A stretch of DNA of 64,000 nt. Source: Anaerolinea thermolimosa (lineage in GTDB: Bacteria > Chloroflexota > Anaerolineae > Anaerolineales > Anaerolineaceae). The stretch spans positions 48,449 to 112,448 of the forward strand of contig NZ_DF967965.1 of assembly GCF_001050195.2 (NCBI RefSeq). Reading direction: 5' to 3'. A program made the translations under genes and the position numbers. Below the pieces are notes generated by a model that did not search any database, was not told the DNA's origin, and worked only from the letters and a program-made list of their open reading frames with translations. Shown here one piece after another: positions 22,349-49,612 of the stretch (its first letter is position 1; each line of letters starts with the position of its first letter).

Positions 22349-23941
<1,593 letters not shown>

Positions 23942-23953
23942 TCCATAGTATGT

Positions 23954-23985: not shown

Positions 23986-24007
23986 GTGGAAAGCAGGTGC
24001 TGAGAAG

Positions 24008-25036: not shown

Positions 25037-25077
25037 AATCGGCGGTCTCTTCTTTTTCTTAGAACAGGAGGTTTGCC

Positions 25078-27133: not shown

Positions 27134-27141
27134 GCGTATCG

Positions 27142-27165
27142 GGGGCGGGCCTTCCCGCCCCTTTT
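27142..27165 (+). terminator. Intrinsic terminator after araA
   Basis: GGGGCGGG (27142-27149) pairs with CCCGCCCC (27154-27161) around a CCTT loop, followed by TTTT. Confidence 0.85.
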
Positions 27166-27209
27166 GCGTCAGCCTGGGGCTGATGGGAGGCTTTTTAAGG
27201 AGGGTATTT

Positions 27210-29603: not shown

Positions 29604-29688
29604 GGTCAGTAATCGAAATGAGGGGATTTAAGAGTCTACAACATCCAGAAGAGGTTGTCTGACCAGGTCCTATAAGCAGGAGGCAAAA

Positions 29689-30822
29689 ATGGTTGAGCTC
29701 ACGAAGAAGGAACGATTGATGCGACAGGTGCGGGGGTTAGAAGTCGATCGTGTGCCTACCATTGGAGGCTGGATCGGCGGTGGCCGGGTGCTGGCGCGGA
29801 TTGCGGGGATGGATGAAAGGGAGTATCTGGCTGACCCGGAGCGCGCTGTCATTGCGGCCCACCAGGCCCTGGATGTGGACGGTATGGTACAGCCGGTCAT
29901 TCCGCTGGGGTTGGATCAGATCCGCACCGGGCTGGTACAGGAGGAAAGCTTCAGGGGGGTGGAACCGGAAGAAGTGCTGGAGCTGGCAGAGATGTACCCG
30001 GATTCGGAGAAGGAAATCCTTGCCACGTTCGATGCTGTCGCTGCCGAAGAACGCTACCGCGATTATTTTGAACGTGCCTTTCAGAATTGGGGAGGCATCC
30101 AGCCGGTGCCGAACTTCTGGGAAATGGGGGGGCATTTTCCTTTGTATACCGAAGTGGGCTATACGGCCTTCTGGACGGCCTGTGCGCTTTACCCGGAAGC
30201 TGTAGGAAAGATTTACTGGGCGCGGGCGGTACAATCACGTGAACGGGCGAAAATTCTGGTTAAACTCTACCGGGAATATGATCTGGTTCCGATCATGTTC
30301 TGTGGAGAAGATCTGTGCAACAACAGCGGGCCGATGGTTTCACCGACTTTTCTGCGACGCTATTACTTCCCAACGGTCAGGATGATTGTCGAGCCGCTGG
30401 TGGATGCCGGTGTGCGCCTGGTGCATCATTGCGATGGCGATGTGCGCCCACTGCTCTCAGATTTTATAGAGATTGGATTTAGCGGATTGCAGGGATTTCA
30501 GTACGAACTTGGGATTGATCTGTGCGAGCTGCGTGGTTTACGCAGCCGCATGGGAGAAGAATTGCTCTTATTCACGGGGTTGAGCGTTTCACGTACGCTG
30601 CCGTTTGGAACGCTGGAAGATGTGCGGGAGGAGATTGATTACTTCCTGGATTGCACGGATGGCGGCAGGGGAATGTTTCTTTTTACCAGTAATGTGACCG
30701 GTGTTGAGACGCCTCCCGAAAACCTGGTGGAAGCTTACCGCTATGTGCGCACCCGTAAGCCAGGTGTGCTGGGGAACCCCCCCAGGCGGGAGTGGCCGTG
30801 GAGGGTGAAACACGGGGAGTGA
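29689..30822 (+). CDS. URO-D family protein, methyltransferase-like (MtaA/CmuA type)
   Basis: A 377-residue TIM-barrel protein of the uroporphyrinogen decarboxylase superfamily. The N-terminus KERLMRQVRGLEVDRVPTI and C-terminus GTLEDVREEIDYFLDCTDGG ... PPENLVEAYRYV are characteristic. The segment VHHCDGDVRPLLSDF contains a His-x-Cys-type motif at the place where MtaA/CmuA methyltransferases bind zinc, and there is no other heme gene near, so true HemE is unlikely. The methyl donor or acceptor is unknown. The ATG follows GGAGG. It is followed 21 bases later by a ZIP metal transporter. A related barrel is fused to the LacI regulator at 38250. Confidence 0.8.
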   Translation: MVELTKKERLMRQVRGLEVDRVPTIGGWIGGGRVLARIAGMDEREYLADPERAVIAAHQALDVDGMVQPVIPLGLDQIRTGLVQEESFRGVEPEEVLELAEMYPDSEKEILATFDAVAAEERYRDYFERAFQNWGGIQPVPNFWEMGGHFPLYTEVGYTAFWTACALYPEAVGKIYWARAVQSRERAKILVKLYREYDLVPIMFCGEDLCNNSGPMVSPTFLRRYYFPTVRMIVEPLVDAGVRLVHHCDGDVRPLLSDFIEIGFSGLQGFQYELGIDLCELRGLRSRMGEELLLFTGLSVSRTLPFGTLEDVREEIDYFLDCTDGGRGMFLFTSNVTGVETPPENLVEAYRYVRTRKPGVLGNPPRREWPWRVKHGE

Positions 30823-30843
30823 CCGGTCAGGAGAGAGAGGAAA

Positions 30844-31659
30844 ATGGTATTCGAAGGATTTGCATCGTTGAACCCTGTTTTACAGGCCCTGCTGGGCACC
30901 CTTTTTACCTGGGGTGTGACGGCCCTGGGGGCGGCAGGTGTGTTTTTCTTCAAGAGTATTCGCCAGCGGGTGCTCAATTCCATGCTCGGTTTTGCCGCCG
31001 GGGTAATGATTGCCGCAAGTTTCTGGTCGTTGCTGGCCCCGGCGATACAGATGGCCGAAGAGAGCGGTGGGCCAGCCTGGATGCCAGCGGTGGTCGGGTT
31101 CTTACTCGGCGGGGTGTTTTTGTGGGTGGTGGATCGGCTTCTGCCGCACCTGCATATCGGGATGGCACTTGACCAGGCTGAAGGGATCAAGACGCGCTGG
31201 CAACGCAGTGTTTTACTGGTGCTGGCTATCACGCTCCATAACATTCCAGAGGGGCTGGCGGTGGGTGTGGCCTTCGGGGCAGTGGCCGCCGGTTTGCCTG
31301 CGGCCACCCTGGCCGGAGCTTTGGCGCTGGCACTCGGAATTGGTATTCAAAACTTCCCGGAAGGGGCGGCGGTATCGATCCCGTTACGCCGCGAAGGCAT
31401 GAGCCGCTGGAAGAGCTTCCTCTACGGGCAGGCTTCGGGCATGGTGGAGCCGGTGGCGGGGGTGCTGGGAGCGGCGCTGGTGTTGCTCATCCGCCCGATT
31501 CTTCCCTATGCCCTGGCATTTGCGGCGGGAGCGATGATCTATGTGGTGGTGGAGGAGATCATCCCTGAGGCACAGCAGGAGAAGGATACTCATGCGGCTA
31601 CCTTCGGGGCTATGCTCGGGTTTGCCCTGATGATGCTTCTGGACGTTGCGCTGGGTTAA
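30844..31659 (+). CDS. ZIP family metal transporter
   Basis: A 271-residue membrane protein with eight hydrophobic segments. The metal-site motifs of helices 4 and 5 are intact: [15 protein letters not shown] and [14 protein letters not shown], followed by EEIIPEA in the last third. This is the GufA/ZupT-type branch that imports zinc or other divalent ions. The central loop [16 protein letters not shown] carries His residues. ATG 30844 has GAGAGAGG upstream and is only 21 bases after the URO-D-family gene, so the two are probably co-transcribed. Confidence 0.9.
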
Positions 31660-34440: not shown

Positions 34441-34469
34441 TTGAATCGGGTTGATGAAATCGATACAAT
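34441..34469 (+). promoter_or_regulatory. Promoter of the sugar ABC operon
   Basis: TTGAAT (34441-34446) and TACAAT (34464-34469) with the optimal 17-bp spacing. The expected transcription start is near 34476. Confidence 0.75.
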
Positions 34470-34482
34470 GTAATCGTTACCG
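34469..34482 (+). promoter_or_regulatory. LacI-family operator-like site
   Basis: TGTAATCGTTACCG fits the TGnAAnCGnTnnCA pattern of LacI/CcpA-type operators at all but the last position, and contains GTAA-TCG-TTAC. It covers the predicted transcription start directly after the -10 box, ideal for repression. The LacI-type regulator at 38250 is the likely binder (inferred). Confidence 0.6.
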
Positions 34483-34560
34483 TTTAATCCTTTTCATAAA
34501 AGGGTGAACGGGTTTTCAGATCTACCTTATTCAAATTCACCAGAGGGTTACAGTTTGAAT

Positions 34561-36126
34561 ATGCCGGATAAAAACCCGGAAGATTATCTGGTGCTCATGC
34601 AGGGCATTGACAAGCATTTTCCAGGTGTGCATGCCCTGAATCAGTGCCGCTTCGACCTGAAGCGTGGAGAGGTACATGCTCTCGTGGGCGAGAACGGCGC
34701 GGGAAAATCTACGCTGATGAAAGTCCTGGCGGGGGTTTACAAAAAGGATGCTGGCAGGATATTCGTCCGGGGGCAAGAAGTGGAGATTCCCAATCCGCGG
34801 GCCGCGATAGACCTGGGGATCAGCACCATTCATCAGGAACTCAACCTTATTCCCCACCTGACGGTGGCGCAAAACATTTTTATTGGGCGTGAGCCGAGGC
34901 AAAAGATTCGCTTCTTGCTGGATGATAAAGCGATCAATGAGAAGGCCCAGCAGGTATTCGATATGATGCATTTGAAGCTTGAGCCAGGCACCCTGGTGGC
35001 GAATCTGACGGTGGCCAAGCAACAAATGGTAGAAATTGCCAAGGCGCTTTCTCTGAATGCTGAAGTGCTCATTATGGATGAGCCTACTGCGGCCCTTACC
35101 GAGGCAGAAATTGAAGAGCTCTTCCGAATCATCCGCAAACTGCGAGAGCAGGGAGTTGGGGTGATCTACATCTCTCATCGCCTGGAGGAGCTCAAGCAGA
35201 TCTCCGACCGGGTCACGGTGATGCGGGATGGACATACCATTGATACGGTGAATACACAGGATGCCACCATTGATCAGATTATCAGTATGATGGTGGGCCG
35301 CACCATTTATGAAGCTGCTCCTGATGTGCCGGAACATCAGGAGGAAGAAGTGGTGCTTGAAGTGAGGAATCTTAGCCGCGGGAATGTGATTAAAGATGTC
35401 AGCTTTAAGCTAAAGAAAGGTGAAATCCTGGGGTTTGCCGGTCTGATGGGTGCGGGGCGTACCGAAGTGGCGAGGGCCATTTTTGGAGCTGACCCGGTGG
35501 ATTCAGGGGAGATTTATGTGCATGGGCGGAAGGCGGTCATTCGAAGCCCCAAGGACGCCGTGAAGTATGGCATTGGATATCTTTCGGAAGACCGGAAACG
35601 CTTTGGCCTTACCCTGGACCTGGATGTGGAAAATAACATGGTGCTGGCCACTTTCCGAAAGTTTATGGGAGCCCTGGGCTGGGTGAACGACTCAAAGATC
35701 CATCAAACGGCCAACCATTATGTGCAGGCCCTTTCCATTAAAACCCCCAGTGTGCAGCAGAAGGCGCGCTATCTCTCCGGAGGGAACCAGCAAAAAGTGG
35801 TTATCGGAAAGTGGCTCACCTGCGATACCGATATTTTGATCTTCGACGAACCCACCCGCGGGATTGACGTGGGGGCGAAGAGTGAAATTTACCGACTGCT
35901 CAACGAACTGGCTCACCAGGGCAAGTCGATCATCATGATTTCTTCGGAATTGCCGGAAATTTTAAGAATGAGTCACCGTATTGTGGTCATGTGTGAAGGC
36001 CGGATCACCGGCGAGTTGAGCAGTGCTGAAGCCACACAGGAGAAAATCATGAAACTGGCCACTCAGCGCGGTGTCGTCATGCGAGACAATGGCGTGGCCT
36101 TACCCCAGAACAATGGAGTTGTCTAA
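34561..36126 (+). CDS. Sugar ABC transporter ATPase (RbsA/MglA type)
   Basis: A 521-residue protein with two fused ABC domains, as in ribose/galactose-type importers. Domain 1 has Walker [10 protein letters not shown], a variant signature [15 protein letters not shown], and Walker [12 protein letters not shown]. Domain 2 lacks a normal Walker A (GLMGAGRTE) but has signature LSGGNQQKV and Walker [12 protein letters not shown], the usual asymmetry of this family. ATG 34561 is preferred; the in-frame GTG at 34504 lacks a Shine-Dalgarno site. It is the first gene of an operon behind a LacI-type operator, followed by permease and binding protein. Confidence 0.9.
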
Positions 36127-36129: not shown

Positions 36130-37122
36130 ATGATCCACAGTTTGCTGGCACGCGGGAGTTCTATTTTTCGTTCGTCTGCGATGCAGAGAGTGTTAGCCTT
36201 TGGAGGGTTGATTGTCCTGTTTGTGGGGTTCTCTCTGGCATCGCCCAACTTCTTCAATTTTGAGAATATCAAAGGTATTCTTCTGGCAACTGCAGTGAAT
36301 GGTGTCCTGGCGCTTGGTTCAACCTTTGTGATCATCACCGCAGGGATTGACCTTTCCGTGGGTACGGTGATGACGTTTTCGGCAGTGATGACCGGCGTCT
36401 TTATTACTTTCTGGCATTTACCTGTACCGCTGGGGGTGCTGGCGGGGCTTTCGGCGGGAGCTCTGTGCGGATTTCTCAATGGCACCATGGTTTCACGCAT
36501 GCGGTTGCCGCCTTTCGTGGCTACACTGGGGATGCTTTATGCTACCAAGGGGCTTTCGCTGGTTATTTCGGGGCTGAAACCCATTTACTTCACTGACACC
36601 CCCGAATTTGCCACGATTTCGATGGGATCGATTCTTGGGATGATTATTCCGGGGTTTGATATCCCTAACGCCGTCCTGATTCTCTTCGGTGCCGCCATTC
36701 TGGCGAATTTGATTCTCACCAAAACGGTCATTGGCCGTTATACCTTTGCCATTGGCAGCAATGAAGAGGCCACGCGGCTTTCGGGTGTGAATGTTAATGC
36801 CTGGAAAACCGTGATTTATACCATGTGTGGCATCTTTGCCGGTTTAGGGGGAGTGTTGATGGGGGCGCGTCTGAATTCGGCCCAGCCAGCGCTCGGGGCC
36901 GGGTATGAACTGGATGCTATTGCCGCGGCAGTGATCGGTGGCACATCGTTGAAAGGTGGCGAGGGGACCATTGTGGGAACCATCATCGGGGCTTTTGTGA
37001 TCAGCACGTTGGCTAACGGGTTACGTATTCTCTCGGTTCCCCAGGAGTGGCAGATTGTAGTCACAGGGGCGATTCTGGTCATGGCGGTGTACATGGATAA
37101 TCTGCGCCGCCGCAAGGAGTGA
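36130..37122 (+). CDS. Sugar ABC transporter permease (RbsC type)
   Basis: A 330-residue membrane subunit with eight to ten helices. The family blocks LALGSTFVIITAGIDLSVG (residues about 58-76), GTSLKGGEGTIVGTIIGAFV and the LNGTMVSRMRLPPFVATLG loop identify the ribose/xylose/allose class. It begins three bases after the ATPase stop codon. A homodimer of this protein would form the channel for the sugar delivered by the binding protein 77 bases downstream. Confidence 0.93.
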   Translation: MIHSLLARGSSIFRSSAMQRVLAFGGLIVLFVGFSLASPNFFNFENIKGILLATAVNGVLALGSTFVIITAGIDLSVGTVMTFSAVMTGVFITFWHLPVPLGVLAGLSAGALCGFLNGTMVSRMRLPPFVATLGMLYATKGLSLVISGLKPIYFTDTPEFATISMGSILGMIIPGFDIPNAVLILFGAAILANLILTKTVIGRYTFAIGSNEEATRLSGVNVNAWKTVIYTMCGIFAGLGGVLMGARLNSAQPALGAGYELDAIAAAVIGGTSLKGGEGTIVGTIIGAFVISTLANGLRILSVPQEWQIVVTGAILVMAVYMDNLRRRKE

Positions 37123-37199: not shown

Positions 37200-38174
37200 A
37201 TGAACAGATCGAAGTGGGTTTATGTTTTGATCGCCCTGCTGGTGGGTGCACTGGTGGTGAGCGCCTGTGCTCCTGCCGCGACCCCAACACAGTCTGCGGC
37301 GAAAAAGCCGTATATCGCGATCATCTCCAAGGGGTTCCAGCATCAGTTCTGGCAGGCGGTCAAGGCGGGCGCTGAGAAGGCTGCAGCAGAATTCAACGTG
37401 GAAATCACGTTTGAAGGACCGGAAAGCGAAGCCATGGTTGATAAGCAGATGGAAATGCTTCAAACTGCCATCGATAAAAAACCGGCTGCCATTTGTCTGG
37501 CAGCGGTTGATAGCAAAGCGGCTATCCCTCTGCTGGAGAAGGCCAAGGCAGCCAATATTCCTATCATTGGCTTTGACTCCGGTGTGGATAGCGACATTCC
37601 TCTGACCACCGCGGCCACCGACAACATTGCCGCCGCTGCTCTGGCCGCCGATAAAATGGCTGAGCTCATTGGTGGTGAGGGCGAAGTGGCTGTGATTGCT
37701 CACGACCAGACCAGCCGAACCGGGATTGATCGGGTGAAGGGCTTTACCGATCAGATCAAAGCGAAATATCCCAAGATCACCATTGTGGATATTCAATACG
37801 GCGGTGGTGATCAGCTGAAATCCACTGATATTGCCAAAGCCATCATTCAGGCACACCCGAACCTCAAAGGGTTCTTTGGGGCGAATGAGGGTTCGATCAT
37901 TGGTGTTCTGAACGCCGTGAAAGAGTTGAAGAAGGAAGGCCAGATTGTGGTGATCGGGTATGACTCCGGTCAGCAGCAGATCGATGCCATCCGCAGTGGT
38001 GTTGAGGCGGGGGCGATCACCCAGGATCCCATCGGGATCGGGTATAAATGCGTCGAAGCCGCAGTCAAGGCGATAAAAGGCGAGACCCTCCCCAAGACCA
38101 TTGATACCGGCTTCCACTGGTACGACAAGAACAACATCGACTCCGAACAGATTAAACCGTTGCTCTACAAGTAG
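37200..38174 (+). CDS. Sugar ABC transporter substrate-binding lipoprotein
   Basis: A 324-residue periplasmic-binding-protein of the ribose (RbsB-like) class, anchored as a lipoprotein: basic N-terminus, hydrophobic segment and lipobox VSAC with Cys 23. The mature part starts YIAIISKGFQHQFWQAVKAG and contains GFDSGVDSD and the hinge-side block GFFGANEGSIIGVLNA. The sugar cannot be read from the sequence; the surrounding L-fucose isomerase and the kinase suggest L-fucose, L-rhamnose or an oligosaccharide. GAGGAGG lies upstream of the ATG. A terminator follows at 38206. Confidence 0.9.
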   Translation: MNRSKWVYVLIALLVGALVVSACAPAATPTQSAAKKPYIAIISKGFQHQFWQAVKAGAEKAAAEFNVEITFEGPESEAMVDKQMEMLQTAIDKKPAAICLAAVDSKAAIPLLEKAKAANIPIIGFDSGVDSDIPLTTAATDNIAAAALAADKMAELIGGEGEVAVIAHDQTSRTGIDRVKGFTDQIKAKYPKITIVDIQYGGGDQLKSTDIAKAIIQAHPNLKGFFGANEGSIIGVLNAVKELKKEGQIVVIGYDSGQQQIDAIRSGVEAGAITQDPIGIGYKCVEAAVKAIKGETLPKTIDTGFHWYDKNNIDSEQIKPLLYK

Positions 38175-38249: not shown

Positions 38250-40250
38250 ATGGTTACGATTCACGATGTTGCACAGAGAGCGGGCGTTTCTCCGGTGACG
38301 GTGTCACGGGTGATTAACGGCGTGGCCAATGTCAACCCTGAAACGCGCGCGCGGGTTGAAAGGGCGATCCGCGAGCTGGGTTACCTGCCCAACCGTGCCG
38401 CCCGCAGCCTGCGCGTGCGTCAGACGCACACCCTGGCCCTGCTGGTGCCCGATATTACCAATGCTTTCTGGACGACGGTAGCGCGTGGGGTAGAAGACGC
38501 GGCGCAAACACGAGGGTATTCCGTGCTTCTCTGCAATACCGATGAAAACCCGGTAAAGCAAAGCAGTTACCTGGAGGCTGTGCTTCAGCAACGGGTAGAC
38601 GGAGTGGTTCTGGCCCCCTGTGATACTGACCCATCGCGCCTGGCTGCGTTGCAAATTCACCAGACACCGGCAGTTTTAATCGATCGGCGGGTAACCGGCT
38701 GGGATGGCGACTGGGTCATCAGTGATTCACTTGGGGCGGCGCGGGCGCTGGTGGATCATCTTGTGCGCCTGGGTCGCAGAGCGATTGCCATGGTCACCGG
38801 GCCGCGGGGAGCTTCCACAGCTGAAGACCGGGTTGCGGGGTACAGGCTGGCTCTGCTCTCAGCCGGTTTAGCGTTTGATCCGCGCCTGGTGCGATATGGC
38901 GAGTTCCGCGCTCCCTCAGGGCGAGAGCAAACCCACCGGATGCTCGATGAGGGGTTGCGCCCGGATGCCATCCTGGCGGCCAATAACGTGCTGGCGATGG
39001 GGGTGTTGGAGGCCTTGAATGAACGGGGCTTGCATGTTCCCCAGGACATTGCGCTGGTTTGTTTTGATGAATTGCCTGACCTGGCAAAGTTCTTCCCGTT
39101 TTTAACCGTGGCGGCTCAACCGGCTTACGATATGGGGCTCAATGCTGCTCAACTGTTGCTGAGCCGTATTGATGCCGCCGGGCCGTTGCAACCACGGCAG
39201 GTTGTTTTACCGGTTCGGCTGGTATTACGTTATTCCTGCGGGCGCCTCCTTCAGCAAGAAGAAGTGAGCCCCAAAATTCTGGAGAATCGGAGTGAATCGG
39301 TCATAGCGCGCCCGCTTTTACGGAACGAAGTCAGCCTTCTGGAATCAGAGGGGGGCGAAGGTCTTCTGGCTTCGGTGCGTTCCTTCCGGCAGGCGGGGCG
39401 CTCGCTCCTCTCTCGCGTTCTCTATGGCGAAGCTGTAGAACGGATTCCCTACCTGGAACTGGATTTCCCCGGCCAGGCAACCCTGGAATATGTACTTGAA
39501 CGTGCCCTGGCTGAAGAAGTGGACGCTCAAAATGTCTCACCGGAGGACTGGCTGGGGTTTGCTTTACGTGCGGGGGTAGATGCCATTCCGTGTCTTTTGT
39601 TCTCGCATCGTACCGGAGCGTTACCTCCCGTTTTTGAATGGTTATATCGAATCGAGAAATATATGCGGGCGGCTCAGAACAGCGGGGTGGAGGTGTATCT
39701 CAGTCTGCTCGTGCCGGAACAATGCGTGGCACAGCCTTCCGGCAGAGGAGAGGAATGTACGCCGCACCTGGTGACCGCCCTGCGGACAATCTGTGATCGC
39801 TTTGCTGAGGATCTTCCGCTGGTCATGCTGCGCGGGCTACCCGGGCATGCTCTGCAGGCAGAGGTACTTGCCGGGTTGATTGCCCCGATGAAAGAACATG
39901 CCATTCCGACAGCAGTGGAACTCCCTGTCCAATCGGCGGGTTCTCTCGCCTCTCTGGTGCGGGCGGGTGTCACGGCGGTTGTTGCGGCGGGTTATCCACT
40001 GGAAGAGCTGGCGGCTCTCAAACGTGCATGTGGGGAGCAGCTGGTTGTGGTGGGCGGCCCCCTGGCGGTATGGATGCGGGGCTCACGCCGGGAAGTCGAG
40101 CAAGTGGTGAAGGATTATTGCACAGCGCTTTCTCCGGGTGGGAGATGTGTATTTTCAATCAGGCAAAGTATCTCCGGGGAGATTGCCCCTGAGCCTTACA
40201 GCTGGATGTTGCGAACATTACGGGCTTTTCATGGAGAAAATTCATTTTAA
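38250..40250 (+). CDS. LacI-type regulator fused to a URO-D-like barrel domain
   Basis: A 666-residue protein, twice the length of a normal LacI repressor. Residues 1-60 are a standard HTH plus hinge helix (TIHDVAQRAGVSPVTVSRV ... NRAARSL). Up to about 345 there is the periplasmic-binding-protein-like sensor (LALLVPDITNAFW, VCFDELPDLAKFF). From about 390 to the end comes a domain that follows the URO-D pattern: LLSRVLYGEAVERIPYLEL at its start, LKRACGEQLVVVGGPLAVW, and LSPGGRCVFSIRQSISGEIAPEP near the end. The His-x-Cys motif of active relatives is replaced (LPVQSAGS), so it is probably a ligand-sensing or structural module. ATG 38250 gives the normal LacI N-terminus. The likely target is the operator at 34469. 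Confidence 0.8.
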   Translation: MVTIHDVAQRAGVSPVTVSRVINGVANVNPETRARVERAIRELGYLPNRAARSLRVRQTHTLALLVPDITNAFWTTVARGVEDAAQTRGYSVLLCNTDENPVKQSSYLEAVLQQRVDGVVLAPCDTDPSRLAALQIHQTPAVLIDRRVTGWDGDWVISDSLGAARALVDHLVRLGRRAIAMVTGPRGASTAEDRVAGYRLALLSAGLAFDPRLVRYGEFRAPSGREQTHRMLDEGLRPDAILAANNVLAMGVLEALNERGLHVPQDIALVCFDELPDLAKFFPFLTVAAQPAYDMGLNAAQLLLSRIDAAGPLQPRQVVLPVRLVLRYSCGRLLQQEEVSPKILENRSESVIARPLLRNEVSLLESEGGEGLLASVRSFRQAGRSLLSRVLYGEAVERIPYLELDFPGQATLEYVLERALAEEVDAQNVSPEDWLGFALRAGVDAIPCLLFSHRTGALPPVFEWLYRIEKYMRAAQNSGVEVYLSLLVPEQCVAQPSGRGEECTPHLVTALRTICDRFAEDLPLVMLRGLPGHALQAEVLAGLIAPMKEHAIPTAVELPVQSAGSLASLVRAGVTAVVAAGYPLEELAALKRACGEQLVVVGGPLAVWMRGSRREVEQVVKDYCTALSPGGRCVFSIRQSISGEIAPEPYSWMLRTLRAFHGENSF

Positions 40251-40262: not shown

Positions 40263-42059
40263 ATGGCTGTCTTTGACACAACCAACCGATGGGTGGGTAG
40301 CCTGCCAAAGATTGGCATTCGCCCCACCATTGATGGACGTTTGAATGGGGTGCGCGAGTCGCTGGAAGAGCAAACGATGAACATGGCGCGGGCCGTGGCA
40401 CGCCTGCTCAGTGAAAACCTGCGTTACCCCAACGGTGAACCAGTTTCGTGCGTGATCGCGGATAGTACGATTGGGGGGGTGGTCGAAGCCGCGCGTTGCG
40501 CCGAAAAATTTGCCCGTGAAGGGGTGGGGGTTTCGATTACGGTGACCCCGTGCTGGTGTTATGGTTCTGAGACGATGGATATGGACCCTCTTACTCCAAA
40601 AGCGGTGTGGGGGTTCAACGGCACCGAGCGCCCCGGTGCGGTGTACCTGGCGGCGGTGCTTGCAGCGCATAACCAGAAGGGCCTGCCGGCCTTCAGTATC
40701 TATGGGCGCGATGTGCAGGATGCCGGTGATCCCACCATTCCCCCGGACGTGCGAGAAAAACTGCTGCGGTTTGCCCGCGCGGGCCTGGCCGCGGCCATCA
40801 TGCGTGGGAAGAGCTACCTCTCGCTGGGCGGGGTTTCGATGGGTATTGCCGGTTCCATCGTTGATCAGAGTTTCTTTGAGAGTTACCTCGGGATGCGGGT
40901 AGAAGTGGTGGATATGACCGAGTTCGTCCGCCGCATTGAAGAGGGGATTTACGACCCTGTGGAATATGATAAAGCTCTGGCCTGGACAAAAGCCAAATGT
41001 AAAGAGGGACGTGACCATAACCCGCCCGACAAACAGCGTACACGGGCGCAGAAAGATCGGGACTGGGAAATGGTGGTGAAGATGGCACTCATCGGGCGAG
41101 ATTTAATGGTGGGAAACCCCCGTCTGGCCGAGCTGGGGTTCGGCGAAGAGGCGCTGGGGCACAATGCCATCGTGGCCGGGTTCCAGGGGCAGCGCCAGTG
41201 GACGGATCACTTCCCCAACGGGGATTTCATGGAGGCTATCCTGAATTCCTCTTTTGACTGGAACGGCATTCGTCAGCCATTTGTGTTCGCCACCGAAAAC
41301 GACAGCCTGAACGGCGCGGCGATGCTCTTTGGCCACTTGCTGACCAATGCGGCTTCGATCTTTGCCGACGTGCGAACCTACTGGAGCCCCGAGGCCGTGA
41401 AACGGGTGACGGGGTATCAGCTCACAGGCCTGGCAGAGGGGGGCGTGATTCATCTGATCAACTCCGGGGCAGCCACGCTGGATGCCACCGGGGCCTTCAA
41501 ACGTGATGGCCAGCCGGTGATGAAGCCCTTCTGGGAGATCACTCCCGCTGAGGTAGAAGCCGCCCTGGCGGCTACCACCTGGTACCCGGCCAATACGGGG
41601 TACTTCCGGGGCGGAGGGTTCTCATCGGGCTTCCTCACGCGGGGGAGCATGCCGGTGACGATGCTGCGGATTAACCTGGTCAAAGGGCTGGGGCCGGTTC
41701 TCCAGCTTGCTGAAGGCTGGACGGTAGATTTACCGGAGGAAGTGCACCGGGTGCTCAATGAGCGCACCGATCCCACCTGGCCGACCCACTGGTTTGCACC
41801 GCGCATCACCGGGGCGGGGGCCTTCCGTGATGTTTACTCGGTGATGGCCAACTGGGGGGCGAACCATGGTGCTGTAAGCTACGGGCATATCGGGGCCGAT
41901 CTGATCGCTCTGGCGTCTATCCTGCGCATCCCGGTGTGTATGCATAATGTGCCCGTAGAACGCATCTTCAGGCCCAGCGCCTGGAGCGCTTTTGGCACGG
42001 CTGACCCGGAAGGAGCCGACTATCGGGCCTGCGCGACCTTTGGCCCGCTCTACGGGTAA
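40263..42059 (+). CDS. fucI: L-fucose isomerase
   Basis: A 598-residue enzyme converting L-fucose to L-fuculose (also D-arabinose). It matches E. coli FucI (591) along its length: [53 protein letters not shown], and the metal-site blocks ATENDSLNG and [18 protein letters not shown] precedes the ATG, 12 bases after the regulator stop codon, so both are probably on one transcript. A strong terminator follows. No fuculose-phosphate aldolase or lactaldehyde reductase is found in the window. Confidence 0.97.
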
Positions 42060-42140: not shown

Positions 42141-43625
42141 ATGACGACTTCATTGCGCTATCTGGCGTTTGATCTGGGGGCGGAGAGCGGGCGCGCCATG
42201 GGGGCTTCGTTTGATGGTGTACACCTCGCTGTGGAGGAAGTGCATCGTTTTGCCACCGGGCCGGTGCGCGTGCTCGATAGCCTGCACTGGGATGTACTTC
42301 GCTTCTGGAGCGAAATGCAAAGCGCGCTTGGAAAGGCCAGTCGGCTGGAAGGGGCAGACCTGGCCAGCCTGGGGGTAGATACCTGGGGGGTCGATTTTGC
42401 CCTGCTGGCCGCGGATGATACCCTGCTGGGAAATCCCTATCATTACCGTGATAGCCGCACCAATGGGATGATGGAAGAAGCTTTCCGAAGAGTCCCGCGG
42501 GCCGAAATTTACCGGCAGACGGGGATTCAGTTCATGCAGTTGAATACCCTGTATCAGCTTCTGGCCATGGTGAAAGCCGAATCGCCGGTTCTCAGGGCGG
42601 CCAGCACATTGTTAACCATGCCCGATCTGTTTAACTTCTGGCTCAGTGGAGTCAAGACGAACGAGTTTACCAATGCTACCACCACCCAGTGCTTTAATAC
42701 ACTTCAGAATGCCTGGGCGACCGATCTGCTGGAGCGACTCGGTATTCCCACCGGGCTTTTTCAGAAGGTCACCCAGCCCTGCACGGTGCTGGGGATGCTT
42801 CGCCGTGCCGTGGTAGAGGATGTGGGTTGCCAGCCGATACCGGTGGTGGCCGTGGGCAGTCACGATACTGCCTCGGCGGTGGCGGCGGTTCCGGCAGAAG
42901 GGCGTGACTTTATCTACATCAGTTCGGGCACCTGGTCTCTGATGGGGGTGGAGAACCCGGCGCCGTTGATCAATGAGCAAACACTGGCGTATGATTTCAC
43001 GAATGAAGGCGGCCTCAACCATACTTTTCGCTTTTTGAAGAACATTATGGGCATGTGGTTGTTACAGGAGTGCCGCCGCGAATGGGCGCGCGAAGGGCAA
43101 AGTTATTCCTACGATGAGCTGACCGAGCTGGCCCGCCAGGCTCGTCCACTGCAGGGGCTGGTTGTTCCTTCAGACGGACGCTTCCTGCCGCCAGGGCCGA
43201 TGGCGGAACGCATCCGCGCCTTTTGCCGCGAGACGGGCCAGCCTGTGCCGGAGACTCACGGAGAGGTGGCGCGTTGTATTCTGGAGAGCCTGGCGCTCGA
43301 ATATCGCTGGGTGGCTGAAAAACTGGAGCTTCTCAACGGGCGGCGCTTCCCTGTGATTCATATCTTCGGGGGTGGCTCTCGCAACCGATTGCTGAATCAG
43401 TTTACGGCGGATGCCGTAGGCTGCCCGGTGGTAGCCGGGCCAGTGGAGGCTACGGCTGTGGGGAATGTGCTGGCACAGATGATCGCGCTGGGGCATATTG
43501 CCTCGCTGGAAGAAGGACGCGCCATCGTTCGTCGTTCCTTCGAGGTGAGTGTTTTTGAACCCCGGGAGAAGGCTTCCTGGGATGATGCCTACGAACGGTA
43601 TCTTCGTTTGAAGAAGGCCGATTAA
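42141..43625 (+). CDS. Rhamnulokinase-family sugar kinase (probable fuculokinase role)
   Basis: A 494-residue carbohydrate kinase of the FGGY/ASKHA superfamily. It resembles rhamnulokinase RhaB: FDLGAESGRAM at the N-terminus, LGVDTWGVDFALL, YRDSRTNGMM, SGIQF-like TGIQFMQLNTLYQL, and TNATTTQ; the C-terminal ATP-binding part has HIFGGGSRNRLLNQFTADA. In family terms it would phosphorylate L-rhamnulose, but no rhamnose isomerase is present and fucI is the preceding gene, so L-fuculose is the probable substrate (inferred). GGAGGG lies upstream of the ATG. It begins 20 bases after the fucI terminator, and the promoter for this block is not obvious. Confidence 0.88.
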   Translation: MTTSLRYLAFDLGAESGRAMGASFDGVHLAVEEVHRFATGPVRVLDSLHWDVLRFWSEMQSALGKASRLEGADLASLGVDTWGVDFALLAADDTLLGNPYHYRDSRTNGMMEEAFRRVPRAEIYRQTGIQFMQLNTLYQLLAMVKAESPVLRAASTLLTMPDLFNFWLSGVKTNEFTNATTTQCFNTLQNAWATDLLERLGIPTGLFQKVTQPCTVLGMLRRAVVEDVGCQPIPVVAVGSHDTASAVAAVPAEGRDFIYISSGTWSLMGVENPAPLINEQTLAYDFTNEGGLNHTFRFLKNIMGMWLLQECRREWAREGQSYSYDELTELARQARPLQGLVVPSDGRFLPPGPMAERIRAFCRETGQPVPETHGEVARCILESLALEYRWVAEKLELLNGRRFPVIHIFGGGSRNRLLNQFTADAVGCPVVAGPVEATAVGNVLAQMIALGHIASLEEGRAIVRRSFEVSVFEPREKASWDDAYERYLRLKKAD

Positions 43626-43645: not shown

Positions 43646-45580
43646 ATGTATTTCGGCGTGCAGTATTATCCGGAACAGTGGCCAGAGTCGCGCTGGCCTA
43701 TCGACGCCGCCATGATGCAACGTGCCGGAGTGAATACAGTGCGCATGGGTGAGTTCGCCTGGAGCGCGTATGAACCGCGTGAAGGGCAGGTCGATTTTCG
43801 CTGGATGGATCGCGCCATTCAACTGCTCAACGAGCATGGCATTCGGGTGATCATGTGCACCTGTTCGCGCACGCCGCCGCCCTGGGTGTTTAAGAAATAT
43901 CCCGGCGTGGCCAATACGCGTTTTGATGGTCATGTTAACCGGTATGGCCAGCGATATACCGTGGGACTGGCGCATCCTGAGTTCATCGCGCTGGCCGAGC
44001 GGATTGACCGGGCAGTCATCGAGCATTTCGCCGGTCATTCGGGAATCATTGGCTGGCAGGTAGATAACGAAGTGGGAGGGTTCAACGACTGCTACTGCGA
44101 GCGTTGTCTGCGGACATTTCAGGATTATCTGCGGGATAAGTATGGTACGGTTGAGCGGCTTAACCAGAGCTGGGGAGAGCATTTCTGGTCGTTCCATTTC
44201 AGCGATTTCGATGAAGTGCCTCTGCCAGCCAACAACCCCCAGCTGGCGCTGGAGTATCGCCGATTTATGTCTCACCTGAATGTGGCGTTTACCCGCTGGC
44301 GGAGTGAGCTGATTCACCAGCTTGACCCGGGGAAATTCGTGACGACCAACTTTCAGTCGTTTACGATCAAGCATACCGATTACTTCAAGATGGCCGAAGT
44401 GATCGATCTGCCGGGGATGAACCATTACCCGCCGCGTTCCCCGGAATTGATCCTGGACTATTACCGCGGCGCCAGGGGGAAGATGATTGTGCTGGAGCAG
44501 TTAAGCCGCCTGGCCTTCTGTGACACTGGCGAAGGCTGGATGCGCCTGTGGGCATACCGTGCTCTGGCTCATGGGGCTTGCGGCACCATTTTCTTCCGCT
44601 GGCGAACTGCCCGCTACGGCCAGGAACAACACGCCGATGGTATTCTGCCCCACGCCGGGCAGGAAAACCGCCGTTACCGCGAGCTGGCACGCATGGGGGC
44701 AGAATTGAAAACGATGGGTGAACGTATCGATGCCACCCATGTTGAGGCCAGGGTGGCCCTGTTGATGGGGTATGAGAGCCGCTGGGCCATGGAAGCCGGC
44801 CTTGACCTGCCGGATATGCAGGGACATCTGGATGTGATCCGTTTCCATGAAGATTTACTGCGTAAAAACGTCACAACTGATGCGCTTGACCCGCATGGCG
44901 ATCTTTCCCGTTATCAACTGGTCATTGCACCTCGTCTCTGGCTGGTGGATGAAGGTATTGCGGCCAATTTGCGCGCTTTTGTGGAGCGGGGCGGGGTGCT
45001 TTGTCTTACAGCGGCCTCGGGCGTGGTGGATGAATTTAACAAGAGCTTCGATACCCCTCGCCCAGGGCCACTCGCCGAAATCGCGGGGGTGGAGATCAGT
45101 GATCTCTCGCCTCTGGAAAAGCCGGTGAGGTTGAGCAGTGCAGTGCTCCCCGCACTGGAAGGGGCGCAGGCCACGGTGATGGCTGATGAAATGCACCCCA
45201 CCACGGCGAAGGTGCTTGCACGTTATGCCTCGGGGTGGCGCAAGGGATTACCCGTGTTGACCGAAAACCGCTGGCATGGGGGGCGGGTGTTCTACCTGGG
45301 GACAGTGCTCGAAGGTGCAGCATTGAGCGCGCTGGTGGGGTACCTTCTGCGCGTGGCAGGGGTTCAGCCTGTGCTTGAGACACCCCCCGGCGTGAGGGCA
45401 TACCAGAGGGTGGGAGAGGCTGAACGGCTCCTGTTCCTGATCAATGAAAATGAGGAGCCACGCTCCCTCGTACTGCCTGAAGGCTGGCGGGATGCATTCA
45501 CCGGAATGCCGGTGGAGGTGGTTGAGATCGGCGGAGTGGATGTGCGGATTCTTTCCCAATCTGACTTTCAGGTACAATAA
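43646..45580 (+). CDS. GH42 beta-galactosidase
   Basis: A 644-residue intracellular beta-galactosidase of family 42. The N-terminus YFGVQYYPEQWPESRWP and RMGEFAWSAYEP are family hallmarks; the acid/base Glu is in WQVDNEVGG (residue 142), and the nucleophile in MIVLEQLSR. A trimerisation (flavodoxin-like) domain, around residues 390-590, and a small beta C-terminal domain complete it. The family acts on galactosides from plant, milk or mucin glycans. AGGAGGG precedes ATG 43646, 20 bases after the kinase, so it belongs to the same operon. Confidence 0.93.
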   Translation: MYFGVQYYPEQWPESRWPIDAAMMQRAGVNTVRMGEFAWSAYEPREGQVDFRWMDRAIQLLNEHGIRVIMCTCSRTPPPWVFKKYPGVANTRFDGHVNRYGQRYTVGLAHPEFIALAERIDRAVIEHFAGHSGIIGWQVDNEVGGFNDCYCERCLRTFQDYLRDKYGTVERLNQSWGEHFWSFHFSDFDEVPLPANNPQLALEYRRFMSHLNVAFTRWRSELIHQLDPGKFVTTNFQSFTIKHTDYFKMAEVIDLPGMNHYPPRSPELILDYYRGARGKMIVLEQLSRLAFCDTGEGWMRLWAYRALAHGACGTIFFRWRTARYGQEQHADGILPHAGQENRRYRELARMGAELKTMGERIDATHVEARVALLMGYESRWAMEAGLDLPDMQGHLDVIRFHEDLLRKNVTTDALDPHGDLSRYQLVIAPRLWLVDEGIAANLRAFVERGGVLCLTAASGVVDEFNKSFDTPRPGPLAEIAGVEISDLSPLEKPVRLSSAVLPALEGAQATVMADEMHPTTAKVLARYASGWRKGLPVLTENRWHGGRVFYLGTVLEGAALSALVGYLLRVAGVQPVLETPPGVRAYQRVGEAERLLFLINENEEPRSLVLPEGWRDAFTGMPVEVVEIGGVDVRILSQSDFQVQ

Positions 45581-45640
45581 AAGCAACTCAGATCACGTAC
45601 ATCTGTTCTTCTCATCCTGTTTTCTCCCTGGAGCTGGTCT

Positions 45641-46903
45641 ATGACACAATCTTCTCAACCGGTGACGGCAGTGGTGGTGGGCGCCGGTGGGCGCGGCATC
45701 ACTTACAGCCTTTTTGCCCTGCAACACCCGGAGCGTCTGCGTATTGTGGGGGTGGCTGAACCGCGGGAATGGAACCGAAACCACATGGTGGCGCTCCATC
45801 ACCTGAAACCAGAAAACGTCTTTACCGACTGGCGCGACCTGGCTGCCCGCCCACGGATGGCGGACGCGGTGATCATCGCCACTCAGGATCGGATGCACGC
45901 CGATCCGGCGGAGGCGTTTGCGGCGCTGGGTTATGCCATTCTTCTCGAAAAGCCCATGGCTCCTAACGAAGCCGATTGTGTACGCATTGTGAACGCGGTG
46001 AAGCGCCATGGTGTGCTCTTTGCCGTCTGCCATGTACTGCGCTATACCGGCTACACGCGCGCATTAAAAAAGCTCCTGGATGACGGCGCGGTGGGAGAGG
46101 TGATCAGTATTCAGCATCTTGAACCGGTGGGTTACTGGCACCAGGCGCATTCCTTTGTGCGCGGTAACTGGCGCAATTCTCAGGAATCTTCACCCATGCT
46201 GTTGTCCAAGTCGTGTCATGATCTGGATTGGATGCGGTACATTATGGGGAGGTCTTGCCGCTCGGTCTCTTCTTTTGGTGAGCTGACCCATTTTAAAAAA
46301 GACCAGAAACCCCCCCAGGCCGGAAATGCCATCCGCTGCCTGGAATGCGATTATGAACCGCAATGCCCTTACTCTGCAAAAAAGATTTACCTGGGGCGGC
46401 TGGCTCGCGGCGAGACGGGCTGGCCGGTGGATGTGGTGGTGCCCGAACCCACGGTAGAGAGCCTCACCGAGGCTCTGCGTACCGGTCCTTACGGGCGGTG
46501 TGTTTACGAATGCGATAATGATGTGGTGGATCACCAGGTTGTCAACCTGTTGTTTGAGGGCGGGAAGACAGGGGTATTCACCATGACGGCCTTCAACCGG
46601 TCGGCGCACCGAAAAACTCGCATCTTTGGCACCCGCGGAGAAATTTTCGGTGATGGCGAACGTATTGAGCTGTTCGATTTCCTTACCGATCAGACGCAGA
46701 TCATTGAAACCGAGAGCCCCGATGGCAGCATCCTCGGTGGGCATGGGGGCGGCGACTACGGTCTGATGGATGCATTTGTTTCGGCAGTGGCCACCGGAGA
46801 CCAGAGCCTGATCCTTTCCGGGGCGGACGAGTCCCTCGAGACGCATCGGATGGTCTTTGCCGCCGAACGGGCGCGGGAAGAACACCGGGTGGTTGATCTG
46901 TGA
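45641..46903 (+). CDS. Gfo/Idh/MocA family oxidoreductase
   Basis: A 420-residue NAD(P)-dependent sugar dehydrogenase-like protein. The Rossmann motif is VVGAGGRGITYS (residues 12-23), the EKPMAPNEAD block carries the conserved Lys, and the alpha/beta substrate domain follows. A Cys-rich segment, CLECDYEPQCPYSAKKIY, occurs near residue 227, as in some relatives acting on aminosugars or inositols. The exact reaction is unknown. Its stop overlaps a possible GTG start of the kinase gene downstream (GTGA), and it stands between galactosidase and hexosamine genes. Confidence 0.88.
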   Translation: MTQSSQPVTAVVVGAGGRGITYSLFALQHPERLRIVGVAEPREWNRNHMVALHHLKPENVFTDWRDLAARPRMADAVIIATQDRMHADPAEAFAALGYAILLEKPMAPNEADCVRIVNAVKRHGVLFAVCHVLRYTGYTRALKKLLDDGAVGEVISIQHLEPVGYWHQAHSFVRGNWRNSQESSPMLLSKSCHDLDWMRYIMGRSCRSVSSFGELTHFKKDQKPPQAGNAIRCLECDYEPQCPYSAKKIYLGRLARGETGWPVDVVVPEPTVESLTEALRTGPYGRCVYECDNDVVDHQVVNLLFEGGKTGVFTMTAFNRSAHRKTRIFGTRGEIFGDGERIELFDFLTDQTQIIETESPDGSILGGHGGGDYGLMDAFVSAVATGDQSLILSGADESLETHRMVFAAERAREEHRVVDL

Positions 46904-46923
46904 AAGCCGCCGGGTGGTCAGGG

Positions 46924-48045
46924 ATGACTGACGCTCTCCATTCTGCTCTGGCTGAGGTTGGGGCGCACTTCCAGGTGGAGGGTGAATTCAAAGAAGCGCG
47001 CCCTTACGGGAATGGGCACATTAACGACACCTACCTGGCGCTTTATGATTCGCCTTATGGGATGCGCCGGTATGTGCATCAGCGGATTAATACCCACGTG
47101 TTCCGCGAACCCGAAAAGGTGATGGAGAATATCCGGCGGGTGACGGAGCACATTCGCCACCTGGTGATTGCGGACGGGGGTGATCCTGCCCGTGAGGTTC
47201 TCACCCTCATTCCGGCGCATGATGGATCCTTCACCTGCCGGGATGCATTCGGTCAGGTCTGGCGCACGTATGCCTATATTGACCGCACCCAGACCTTTGA
47301 TGTGCCGCCCGATTTGCACACGGTGTATCAGGCGGCGTATGCGTTTGGGCATTTTCAACGTCAGCTTGCCAGCCTGCCTGGCCCATCTCTGCACGAGACC
47401 ATCCCGGGTTTCCATCATACGCCATCCCGCTTTGAGGCTTTTGTGCGCGCCGTCGAGGCCGATCCCCTCAACCGCGCCGCCCGGGTGAAAGGAGAGATTG
47501 CTTTCCTGTTGAGGCGCGAGGCCGATGCCCCCGTTATTGTGGATTTGCTTGAACAGGGACGCCTGCCTGAGCGTGCCACGCACAATGACACCAAAATTAA
47601 CAACGTCCTCTTCGATGAGTTGACCGGCCAGGGAATTTGTGTCATTGATCTGGATACGGTGATGCCCGGCTCGGCGCTTTATGACTTTGGGGATATGGTG
47701 CGTGCGGCTGCCTCTCGCAGTGCTGAAGATGAACCTGACGCATCACGTGCCGGTTTTGACCTGGCGCTCTTCACCCAGCTGGCGCGTGGTTATGTGCATG
47801 CCACGCGAGATTTTCTCACTTCTGCCGAGTTTGAATTGCTGGCTTTTTCGGCCCGGTTAATCACATATGAGCAGGCCCTGAGGTTCCTGACGGATTACCT
47901 CAACGGCGATGTTTATTACAAAGTGGCGCATCCGTCTCAGAACCTCGACCGTGCCCGCACACAAATAGCCATGCTCGCTGAGATGGAAGACCAGGCCGGA
48001 CTGATGGAAGCCATAGTGGAGCGTTGCCGCAACGAGAAGGAGTAG
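46924..48045 (+). CDS. nahK: N-acetylhexosamine 1-kinase (NahK-like)
   Basis: A 373-residue aminoglycoside-phosphotransferase-fold kinase. It parallels bifidobacterial NahK along its whole length: EARPYGNGHINDTYL at the N-terminus, the catalytic loop RATHNDTKINNVLFD, the metal-binding segment CVIDLDTVMPGSALYDFGD, and RFLTDYLNGDVYYKVAHP. NahK phosphorylates GlcNAc or GalNAc at C1 so they can enter the nucleotide-sugar or lacto-N-biose pathway. ATG 46924 matches the family N-terminus; a GTG at 46900, overlapping the previous stop, would add eight residues. A GH20 hexosaminidase, which would supply its substrate, starts five bases downstream. Confidence 0.85.
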   Translation: MTDALHSALAEVGAHFQVEGEFKEARPYGNGHINDTYLALYDSPYGMRRYVHQRINTHVFREPEKVMENIRRVTEHIRHLVIADGGDPAREVLTLIPAHDGSFTCRDAFGQVWRTYAYIDRTQTFDVPPDLHTVYQAAYAFGHFQRQLASLPGPSLHETIPGFHHTPSRFEAFVRAVEADPLNRAARVKGEIAFLLRREADAPVIVDLLEQGRLPERATHNDTKINNVLFDELTGQGICVIDLDTVMPGSALYDFGDMVRAAASRSAEDEPDASRAGFDLALFTQLARGYVHATRDFLTSAEFELLAFSARLITYEQALRFLTDYLNGDVYYKVAHPSQNLDRARTQIAMLAEMEDQAGLMEAIVERCRNEKE

Positions 48046-48049
48046 AAAA

Positions 48050-49612
48050 ATGCCCGCATATCCCCCGATTTTACCCCGCCCCCGCCACCTGACTCCCCGC
48101 GAGGGACAGTTCACCTTCACTGCCCAGACTGCCCTGCTGGCGGATGAGGCGGCAGAAGGCGTGGCGGCTTTTTTACGAGATAACCTGGCGCGTGTTGCCG
48201 GTATCAGGCTTATGCCGGGCAATTCCAGCGGTAACCGGGTTGAGTTCCGGCTGGATGAAGGCCTGGCTGCGCTTGGTGAGGAAGGTTACCGGCTGGAGGT
48301 ATCTCCACAGCGCATCCTGGCGCGCGCACCTGCCCCCCGTGGACTGTTCTATGCGCTTCAAACCCTGCGACAGTTGCTCCCGGTGGAGATTTACAGCCCC
48401 ACCCTTCAGCCGGGCATTGAATGGTGTGTGCCATGTGTGGAAATCGAAGACCGGCCACGCTTTTCATGGCGCGGAGCGATGCTGGATGTGGCGCGACATT
48501 TTATGCCCCTGGAGTTCATTTTTCAATGGATCGATTTGCTTGCTCTGCATAAGATGAATCGCTTCCACTGGCATTTGACTGACGATCAGGGCTGGCGTAT
48601 CGAGATAAAGAAGTATCCGCGCCTTACAGAGGTGGGTGCCTGGCGAAAGCAGACCATGGTGGGACATTTTGATGGCCAGCTTGAGGGCCTGGTATTTGAC
48701 GGCATTCCTCATGGAGGTTTCTATACTCAGGAGGAAATACGCAGGGTGGTTGAGTATGCACGGGCGCGCTTCGTGCAGGTGGTGCCTGAGATTGAGATGC
48801 CCGGCCACAGCCAGGCGGCGATTGCCGCCTACCCGTATCTGGGCAACACCGGAGAAGCGGTAGAGGTGAGCCAGGTATGGGGGATCCATGAGCACGTGTT
48901 CAATGTGGAGGAGCGTACTTTCCAGTTCCTCACGGATGTGCTGGAAGAGGTGCTCGATCTGTTCCCCGGTGCGTTTATTCACGTCGGGGGAGACGAATGC
49001 CCCAAAAAGGAATGGCGTGAAAGCCCCTCAGCGCAGGCGCGCATGCGGGAACTGGGCCTGAAAAATGAGGATGAACTGCAGAGCTGGTTCATCCGCCGCA
49101 TTGACCGCTTTCTGACGGAGCAGGGCCGTCGGCTCATCGGCTGGGATGAGATTCTGGAAGGTGGGCTGGCCGAAAATGCCGCGGTCATGTCGTGGCGTGG
49201 AGAAGAAGGCGGCATTGCCGCTGCCAATGCCGGGCACGATGTGGTTATGGCGCCCTATACCTTTACCTACCTGGATTACTACCAGTCTGAAGACCGTGCC
49301 AGAGAACCGCTGGCCATCGGGGGCTACCTGCCGCTGGAAAAGGTGTATCTCTACGATCCTCTCCCGGCGGCCATCGCCCCCGATCAAGCGCACCACGTTC
49401 TCGGTACTCAGGCGCAGTTATGGACGGAGTATATTGCCACCCCACAGCATTGCCAGTACATGGCTTTCCCTCGCCTTTGTGCGCTTGCCGAAACTGCCTG
49501 GTTGCCGCCCGAACAAAAAGACCTGGCGGATTTTAAACGGCGGTTGCGCACGCATCTCCGGCGGTTGGATGTGCTGGGGGTGGCTTACCGCAGGCCAGAT
49601 GACCCGGACTGA
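48050..49612 (+). CDS. GH20 beta-N-acetylhexosaminidase
   Basis: A 520-residue family 20 glycoside hydrolase. After an N-terminal alpha/beta domain (GEEGYRLEVSPQRILARAPAPRGLFYA), the barrel starts with RFSWRGAMLDVARHFMPLEFI. The family's catalytic Asp-Glu pair is HVGGDECPKKEW (D315, E316); the HLTDDQGWR block binds substrate, and the final part supplies LWTEYIATPQHCQYM. It removes terminal GlcNAc or GalNAc. No signal peptide: it acts on imported oligosaccharides and feeds the kinase encoded just upstream. The stop is adjacent to the stop of the convergent mannonate-dehydratase-like gene, with no gap. Confidence 0.95.
   Translation: MPAYPPILPRPRHLTPREGQFTFTAQTALLADEAAEGVAAFLRDNLARVAGIRLMPGNSSGNRVEFRLDEGLAALGEEGYRLEVSPQRILARAPAPRGLFYALQTLRQLLPVEIYSPTLQPGIEWCVPCVEIEDRPRFSWRGAMLDVARHFMPLEFIFQWIDLLALHKMNRFHWHLTDDQGWRIEIKKYPRLTEVGAWRKQTMVGHFDGQLEGLVFDGIPHGGFYTQEEIRRVVEYARARFVQVVPEIEMPGHSQAAIAAYPYLGNTGEAVEVSQVWGIHEHVFNVEERTFQFLTDVLEEVLDLFPGAFIHVGGDECPKKEWRESPSAQARMRELGLKNEDELQSWFIRRIDRFLTEQGRRLIGWDEILEGGLAENAAVMSWRGEEGGIAAANAGHDVVMAPYTFTYLDYYQSEDRAREPLAIGGYLPLEKVYLYDPLPAAIAPDQAHHVLGTQAQLWTEYIATPQHCQYMAFPRLCALAETAWLPPEQKDLADFKRRLRTHLRRLDVLGVAYRRPDDPD

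Follow-up and report, generated by a model that had tools for sequence, protein, structure and literature searches.

A LacI-type regulator carrying an eroded URO-D-type barrel in a putative L-fucose operon of Anaerolinea thermolimosa, and its relatives in Anaerolineae

The window, that is, the whole stretch of Anaerolinea thermolimosa DNA that was analysed, has a length of 64,000 nucleotides. It contains a fusion gene flanked by rbsB upstream and fucI downstream; a kinase gene and a GH42 gene follow. The features of this locus are as follows:

34441 to 34469, + strand: promoter-like sequence TTGAAT-17-TACAAT before the operon (9/12 matches; 1 found vs 0.5 expected in shuffles, weak alone)
34455 to 34482, no strand assigned: double LacI-type operator, TGAAATCGATACAA abutting TGTAATCGTTACCG, overlapping the -10-like hexamer (position weight matrix, genome search and flanks)
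34504 to 36126, + strand: rbsA-type sugar ABC transporter ATPase, gene 1 (Pfam, NCBIfam)
36130 to 37122, + strand: sugar ABC permease, gene 2 (Pfam)
37200 to 38174, + strand: sugar-binding protein, gene 3 (RhaS and D-allose SBP as best NCBIfam models, both under their cut-offs)
38250 to 40250, + strand: LacI–URO-D fusion regulator of 666 aa, gene 4 (single open frame, ATG at 38250 to stop at 40250)
38256 to 38393, + strand: LacI helix-turn-helix of the fusion, residues 3-48 (PF00356, E 5.3e-19, 68.2 bits vs a cut-off of 27)
38424 to 39242, + strand: periplasmic-binding-protein-like sugar sensor, residues ~59-331 (PF00532 109.7 bits, PF13377 113.5 bits; modelled fold)
39243 to 39398, + strand: linker, residues ~332-383 (alignment; low-confidence stretches in the full-length model)
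39399 to 40247, + strand: eroded URO-D-type TIM barrel, residues 384-666 (283 residues), H-T-D-G lost (homology via relatives, model)
40263 to 42059, + strand: L-fucose isomerase FucI, gene 5 (TIGR01089, 1067.5 bits, cut-off 850)
42141 to 43625, + strand: rhamnulokinase-like FGGY sugar kinase, gene 6 (516.7 bits, slightly short of the 527.95 cut-off)
43646 to 45580, + strand: GH42 beta-galactosidase, 20 bp behind gene 6 (Pfam)

The GH42 gene perhaps belongs to the same transcription unit as the operon. The fusion is part of a carbohydrate island (22361-31659 and 43646-49612) coding for an arabinofuranosidase, AraA, GH31, GH42, a Gfo/Idh/MocA oxidoreductase, an APH-family kinase and GH20.

Concerning the start of the fusion, an alternative in-frame TTG at 38190 would give a product of 686 aa; the ATG at 38250 is preferred because the conserved LacI start of the relatives aligns there. 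The LacI module is complete according to Pfam, with the helix-turn-helix (HTH), hinge and periplasmic-binding-protein-like (PBP-like) sensor over residues 1-331 and the Peripla_BP_3 match reaching residue 330. The protein thus shares the HTH, hinge and sensor of LacI/GalR repressors (its best NCBIfam models are RbsR, PurR and CcpA, all below their cut-offs); it differs from them in carrying an additional 283-residue barrel and in having two operators that abut. The C-terminus of LacI itself is a short tetramerisation helix. Beyond residue ~335 the protein has no Pfam or NCBIfam match of its own and no PDB sequence match, and its sequence misses the PF01208 cut-off, with no Pfam match to that family even at E<=1. 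The membership of its barrel in the URO-D family is drawn from homology through relatives and from the model.

The same architecture is found in at least 20 other genomes among the 396 sampled of the class. Matches at E<=0.001 occur in 57/396 class genomes, and in at least 20 besides the window's they lie within frames of 716-813 aa; when fetched and aligned, the proteins of all 20 relatives are full-length LacI–barrel fusions. The LacI part of the window has a median identity of 0.61 to the other fusions (21 compared) and its barrel 0.28, the medians among the other fusions being 0.67 and 0.48. When the residues beyond the LacI part were searched more narrowly, in 151 genomes ranging from the genus to the order, eight genomes other than the window's matched, all of them weakly (E 1.6e-4 to 8.6e-4); the eight genes all belong to the URO-D family (170-216 bits with a local URO-D profile), and at that threshold the same fusion was seen in no other genome of that sample. 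Used as a single-sequence query against the named genome collection, the window barrel found no relative. A profile of 21 fused barrels (A1) found 24 loci there, of which 16 matched through a fused barrel and the other 8 through a free-standing protein; by record titles, 22 are Chloroflexota, one Latescibacterota (a free-standing protein) and one Acidobacteriota, and many are the same contigs as our fusion loci (L039-L058), hence not independent. The Acidobacteriota locus (L070:9404-11053; CP070717.1, Acidobacteriota bacterium bin48) shows the end of a PBP-like LacI-type sensor (23.4 bits, below cut-off) followed by URO-D; its full architecture cannot be read because the preceding stretch is masked. 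Over 400 genomes of the phylum, A1 matches 33 at E<=1e-20. Among the phylum matches listed, G164 and the window's genome are the only verified fusions, and two long frames (L151, L156) are URO-D proteins without a LacI part.

These relatives also bear on the reading in which a frameshift or misassembly joined a lacI gene to a URO-D gene. Nothing found in the window speaks for such an artefact; the point in its favour is that unfused LacI and URO-D neighbours exist (L134, L143). The gene is one open frame and 20 homologous fusions with the same junction come from other assemblies, and since these are independent the artefact is refuted and keeps next to no probability.

Concerning the barrel, one homologous fusion (L045) was scanned with Pfam and matches URO-D (PF01208) at residues 394-731 with E 2.5e-18 and 66.7 bits, covering profile positions 4-345 of 346. 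The 666-residue LacI protein with a URO-D-type extension described by the sequence-only reading is therefore upheld by one frame, the Pfam LacI domains and a homologous fusion with a Pfam URO-D domain. The A1 profile matches solved UroD structures (3cyv, E 1.2e-9) and the chloromethane methyltransferase CdmB (9rui, E 3.5e-4). The model of the window barrel, which was built with the relatives' alignment and so depends on them, is a TIM barrel (pLDDT 80.7, pTM 0.84) of eight strands alternating with helices. The 22 best Foldseek matches are all UroD; 4ay7, a Methanosarcina methyltransferase which we take to be MtaA, comes next at rank 23. VIA-align of the model against UroD gives Z 22.1 and rmsd 3.4 A over 277 aligned residues; with 4ay7 Z is 19.8, and the first unrelated barrel reaches 16.2. 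A full-length model (pLDDT 79.2, pTM 0.76) contains the HTH, the sensor, a weak linker and the barrel. As modelled, residues 384-666 of the window protein are a URO-D-type TIM barrel, as the pattern of the sequence had suggested. The fold is common to the UroD superfamily (uroporphyrinogen decarboxylase, MtaA, CdmB), from which the fused barrel differs by being joined to a repressor and by having mostly lost the motif residues, the window copy being also ~70 residues shorter.

The operator was sought in 21 upstream regions (those of 19/20 relatives, L052 being left out, and two of the window) as palindromic halves of seven bases. The best half occurs in 13/21 of them vs a maximum of 2 in eight shuffles. 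When aligned, the operator of the family consists of two abutting 14-bp LacI-type sites, about TGAAAWCGATAYCA and TGATATCGTTTTCA, together 28 bp; the operator halves have a central CG and are of the TGnnAnCGnTnnCA kind, and the two sites lie 14 bp apart centre to centre. We take the TGnnAnCGnTnnCA kind with central CG to be the classical LacI-family operator form, and by its sequence the window has this LacI/GalR trait, a palindromic central-CG operator at its target operon (34455-34482). A position weight matrix made from 16 relatives' sites, the window site excluded, scores 34459-34478 at 20.6, while 60 shuffled windows reach at most 14.7; three of the 20 relatives (L043, L052, L056) have no good operator by the matrix. 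An earlier search for 16-bp CG/GC-centred near-palindromes over whole loci had given nothing convincing in common; the operator came from the upstream-only search.

Searched as a 20-bp core with at most one mismatch, the operator gives 28 sites in 17/21 genomes and its reversed control 0/21. Seventeen of the 28 lie at the fusion gene or at the head of its apparent operon. Five of the 11 further sites were read. The gene behind the site is fucI in G426, an Aldolase_II gene in G354, a URO-D gene in G250 and a Pterin_bind gene in G394; in G434 the site lies 515 bp before genes for an rbs-type permease and binding protein. At <=1 mismatch the window's genome matches the relatives' pattern once, at 34459-34478 before rbsA; a looser pattern at <=2 mismatches gives 12 forward and 15 reverse matches there, its control 2 and 2. 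Behind the one operator match of the window's genome, no methyl-transfer gene was found. Runs of two or more abutting LacI-type sites with a 14-bp period can be seen at window 34445-34482, L044:7497-7544, L054:579-612 and L058:8208-8241. Tandem operators also accompany a regulator of the family without barrel (L135) and an unfused one (L140), so the predicted side-by-side binding of dimers seems older than the fusion.

The neighbours of the fusion were counted by six-frame profile searches in the 20 relatives' loci, downstream meaning the same strand and <=200 bp away or overlapping. Directly downstream of the fusion, 11/20 loci encode a URO-D protein (in one case a fragment of 35 bits where the contig ends) and 4/20 a corrinoid protein, together 15/20; gene density alone would give 0.13 URO-D and 0.03 corrinoid among 20, figures which assume independent genomes and 1.1 kb per gene and, as several genomes share a family, hold as orders of magnitude only. 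For the link to an enzyme, these loci are stronger evidence than the nearness of the URO-D gene at 29689 in the window. FucI or an FGGY kinase directly follows the fusion in L046 and L047, and at 327 bp in L041; L040 and L043 have no URO-D, corrinoid, FucI or FGGY gene directly downstream. The downstream genes of L042, L057 and L058 overlap the end of the fusion by about 10 bp. Six-frame translation reveals URO-D genes in L039 and L042 and corrinoid genes in L050, L065 and L082. URO-D matches are numerous, 3-61 in each of the 21 genomes. PF02607 matches occur in 21/21 genomes, 1-13 each, and comprise corrinoid proteins and, by length, methionine synthases; the 64-kb window has no PF02607 gene.

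The free-standing proteins closest to the fused barrels (the sisters) lie beside a corrinoid gene in 5/8 loci (L059, L060, L065, L066, L082), and no corrinoid gene is found beside those of L064, L067 and L075. The sisters are probably methyltransferases, but the one scanned stays at 34-40 bits with MtaA/CmuA-type models, whose cut-offs are 235 and 244. In the fullest cluster (L045 and L059, on one contig) the fusion is followed by two URO-D genes, then by genes for a double solute-binding protein, two permeases and a corrinoid protein, and finally by the sister (L059:9977-11050). The double protein (L045:5829-8657) has ~930 residues with two solute-binding domains in tandem (SBP_bac_8, SBP_bac_1); with its homologues in L056, L057 and L044 it is present in 4/20 fusion loci.

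A stand-alone URO-D gene upstream in the window, at 29689, had been proposed to share a ligand with the fusion. The gene is real and a weak match (29.1 bits, cut-off 23.9; 20.2 bits, below cut-off, in the whole-genome search), and it has no special kinship with the fused barrels: in a tree of 53 URO-D domains it groups with other URO-D branches, on a long branch. The genome has 17 URO-D matches, 16 of them over cut-off, so with this tree position its nearness means little and we rejected it as a specific partner.

Looking at the active site, all eight sisters have H-T-D-G-K and, further on, H-P-I/V-E-P-E (8/8 each). Among the 22 fused barrels compared, the H is kept in 13 and the D in 4. The window barrel, which reads ELPVQSAG at that place, has E and P where H and D would stand; its H-T-D-G is entirely lost, and the active site earlier suspected to be dead is indeed so by this motif. 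The missing His-Cys motif on which that view had been based is truly absent from the window barrel (H-x-C is presumably the zinc motif of MtaA/CmuA-type proteins), but its nearest free-standing relatives have H-T-D-G (8/8) and not His-Cys. The motif is exactly HTDGK in L047 and H-x-D-G in L051, L055 and L058. With the motif so kept, some fused barrels might still be methyltransferases whose turnover itself sets repression; we consider this trigger-enzyme reading improbable for the family, as the D is lost in 18/22 fused barrels, that of the window included, and the H in 9/22.

The history of the two parts was followed in two trees. The LacI-part tree comprises 38 sequences: the fusions, barrel-less proteins and, outside, 11 unfused LacI proteins. 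The 21 fusions and five barrel-less proteins form one clade (100/100), within which the barrel-less ones are nested among fusions in three places, on branches of 97/90, 99/90 and 100/98. The tails of 4/5 have SLPL or SLPP, the start of the fusion linker, and the fifth has SLPS; because the linker start is kept, loss of the barrel is the simplest reading of these apparent losses, a tree alone being unable to separate gain from loss. Barrel-less orthologues (L136, L137, L139) also occur in the same fuc-type operons, where the barrel would accordingly be dispensable. In the 53-domain tree, the 22 fused barrels and the eight sisters make up a clade (100/100), outside which the remaining URO-D proteins encoded at these loci fall. 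Monophyly of the fused barrels is not required by this tree but is not rejected either (p-AU 0.107); most simply, the fusion would have happened once, in the ancestor of the clade. The window is placed near the base of the clade, unresolved, in the LacI-part tree, and among six rows at 100/100 in the barrel tree (with L044, L045, L046, L056 and L057). Its barrel has an end branch of 2.7, the longest of the fused ones (others 0.04-0.94), and with so long a branch neither tree is taken as its placement.

Around unfused LacI genes, a URO-D gene is present in 6/10 stretches fetched (L134, L140-L148), and the two genes are directly adjacent in L143 and in the window's own genome. The latter pair (L134:9185-11487; G000:C1:3231184-3233486) consists of an unfused URO-D of 395 aa, 17 bp, and an unfused LacI of 365 aa. 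This LacI is 50% identical to that of the window; judged by sequence, the pair is a separate-gene version of the fusion in the same genome.

None of the 22 fused barrels compared is as eroded as that of the window, which makes the window a poor type specimen. The window barrel keeps 48 of the 162 columns invariant in the sisters, with gaps in 27; the average for the 21 other fused barrels is 72%. The barrel could be vestigial or purely structural, sensing nothing, adding mass or dimer contacts and drifting to loss, fastest in the window. The nested barrel-less proteins, the long end branch, a barrel identity of 0.28 where the LacI part keeps 0.61, and the tandem operators of the barrel-less and unfused regulators are all in line with this. 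Other observations are set against it. There is no stop in the 283 codons of the window barrel; under simulated random mutation, the barrels of three relatives at a divergence of 0.2-0.55 gain 4.0-9.5 stops on average and the frame stays open in <=1.5% of runs, so the window barrel is probably retained as a protein domain. The close fused pair L050/L053 has a dN/dS of 0.05 for the barrel and 0.06 for LacI (dS about 1). Within the L048/L050/L053 lineage the barrel is at least as well conserved as the LacI part, but most of the other pairs compared have a faster-evolving barrel. Together with the strong link to URO-D and corrinoid genes, this leaves the vestigial barrel somewhat unlikely as an account of the family.

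The reading we prefer, with a probability of roughly 0.6, is that the fusion acts locally, as the repressor of an operon for L-fucose (or a similar deoxy-sugar), and that its barrel is a pseudo-methyltransferase sensor, eroding in the window. The LacI part very probably represses the rbsABC–regulator–fucI operon from 34455-34482, as inferred from the operator: dimers would bind the double site and block the promoter, and a sugar or its first intermediate would enter the LacI sensor pocket and release the protein. That the inducer would be a sugar follows from the LacI family and the operon content. The ancestor of the barrel would have been a URO-D protein associated with corrinoid proteins, probably a methyltransferase of the sister subfamily, and in the clade the barrel would act as a pseudo-enzyme sensor reading a methylated substrate or a corrinoid partner. 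The sisters beside corrinoid genes, the fusions before such genes and the catalytic residues lost while the barrel stays constrained in at least one lineage suggest this captured, inactivated methyltransferase used as a sensor, and sensing of two inputs by the fusion is plausible. Genes for methyl transfer and for fucose catabolism would then be switched in concert, e.g. on O-methyl-deoxyhexoses; as fucI and genes for an aldolase, a kinase and Pterin_bind stand behind the same operator, demethylation of such sugars is an attractive guess. In the window lineage the barrel, in frame and modelled as folded, would be on the way to the loss seen elsewhere, and as it is the most eroded and no methyl-transfer gene stands behind its operator, it may be a leftover.

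Corrinoid-dependent methyltransferase systems are organised as MTI–CP–MTII, e.g. cdmBCA, in the part of PMC13222342 consulted; the same part, on an acetogen with 26 such systems, describes the regulation of methylated-compound use as largely unexplored. The fusion clusters resemble these systems in the URO-D, corrinoid and (in one genome) Pterin_bind genes found in them or behind the operator, and differ in that genes of sugar uptake and L-fucose catabolism stand behind the same operator and in being known here from sequence. The main text of a LacI regulon survey (PMC4052901) does not contain the words 'fused', 'C-terminal domain', 'domain architecture' or 'fucose'. In a literature search with limited coverage of subscription journals, no published report of a LacI–URO-D fusion was found, which agrees with the novelty claimed for the architecture as far as publications go, the InterPro architecture lists lying outside that check; nor was any found, these journals being thinly covered, of corrinoid demethylation of methyl sugars or methylated deoxy-sugars. 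Both halves are of known kinds; the combination, the operator and the candidate regulon are not found in the literature searched.

The stages of such a history coexist among these genomes, from genes still separate to genes fused, and from a barrel without its active site to one that is eroded (as in the window) or deleted. This looks like an enzyme domain captured by the regulator of related genes. We tentatively propose a new class of LacI-type sugar repressor responsive to the state of methyl transfer, in which a captured, inactivated methyltransferase of a corrinoid system would read a methylated substrate or a (methyl-)corrinoid protein and so, in Anaerolineae, tie the anaerobic O-demethylation of methylated deoxy-sugars to the catabolism of L-fucose; this broader proposal is held with less confidence than the local reading. 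For the use of methylated compounds, the fusions supply a candidate regulator together with a defined operator and candidate target genes, and they point to methylated deoxy-sugars as a substrate class.
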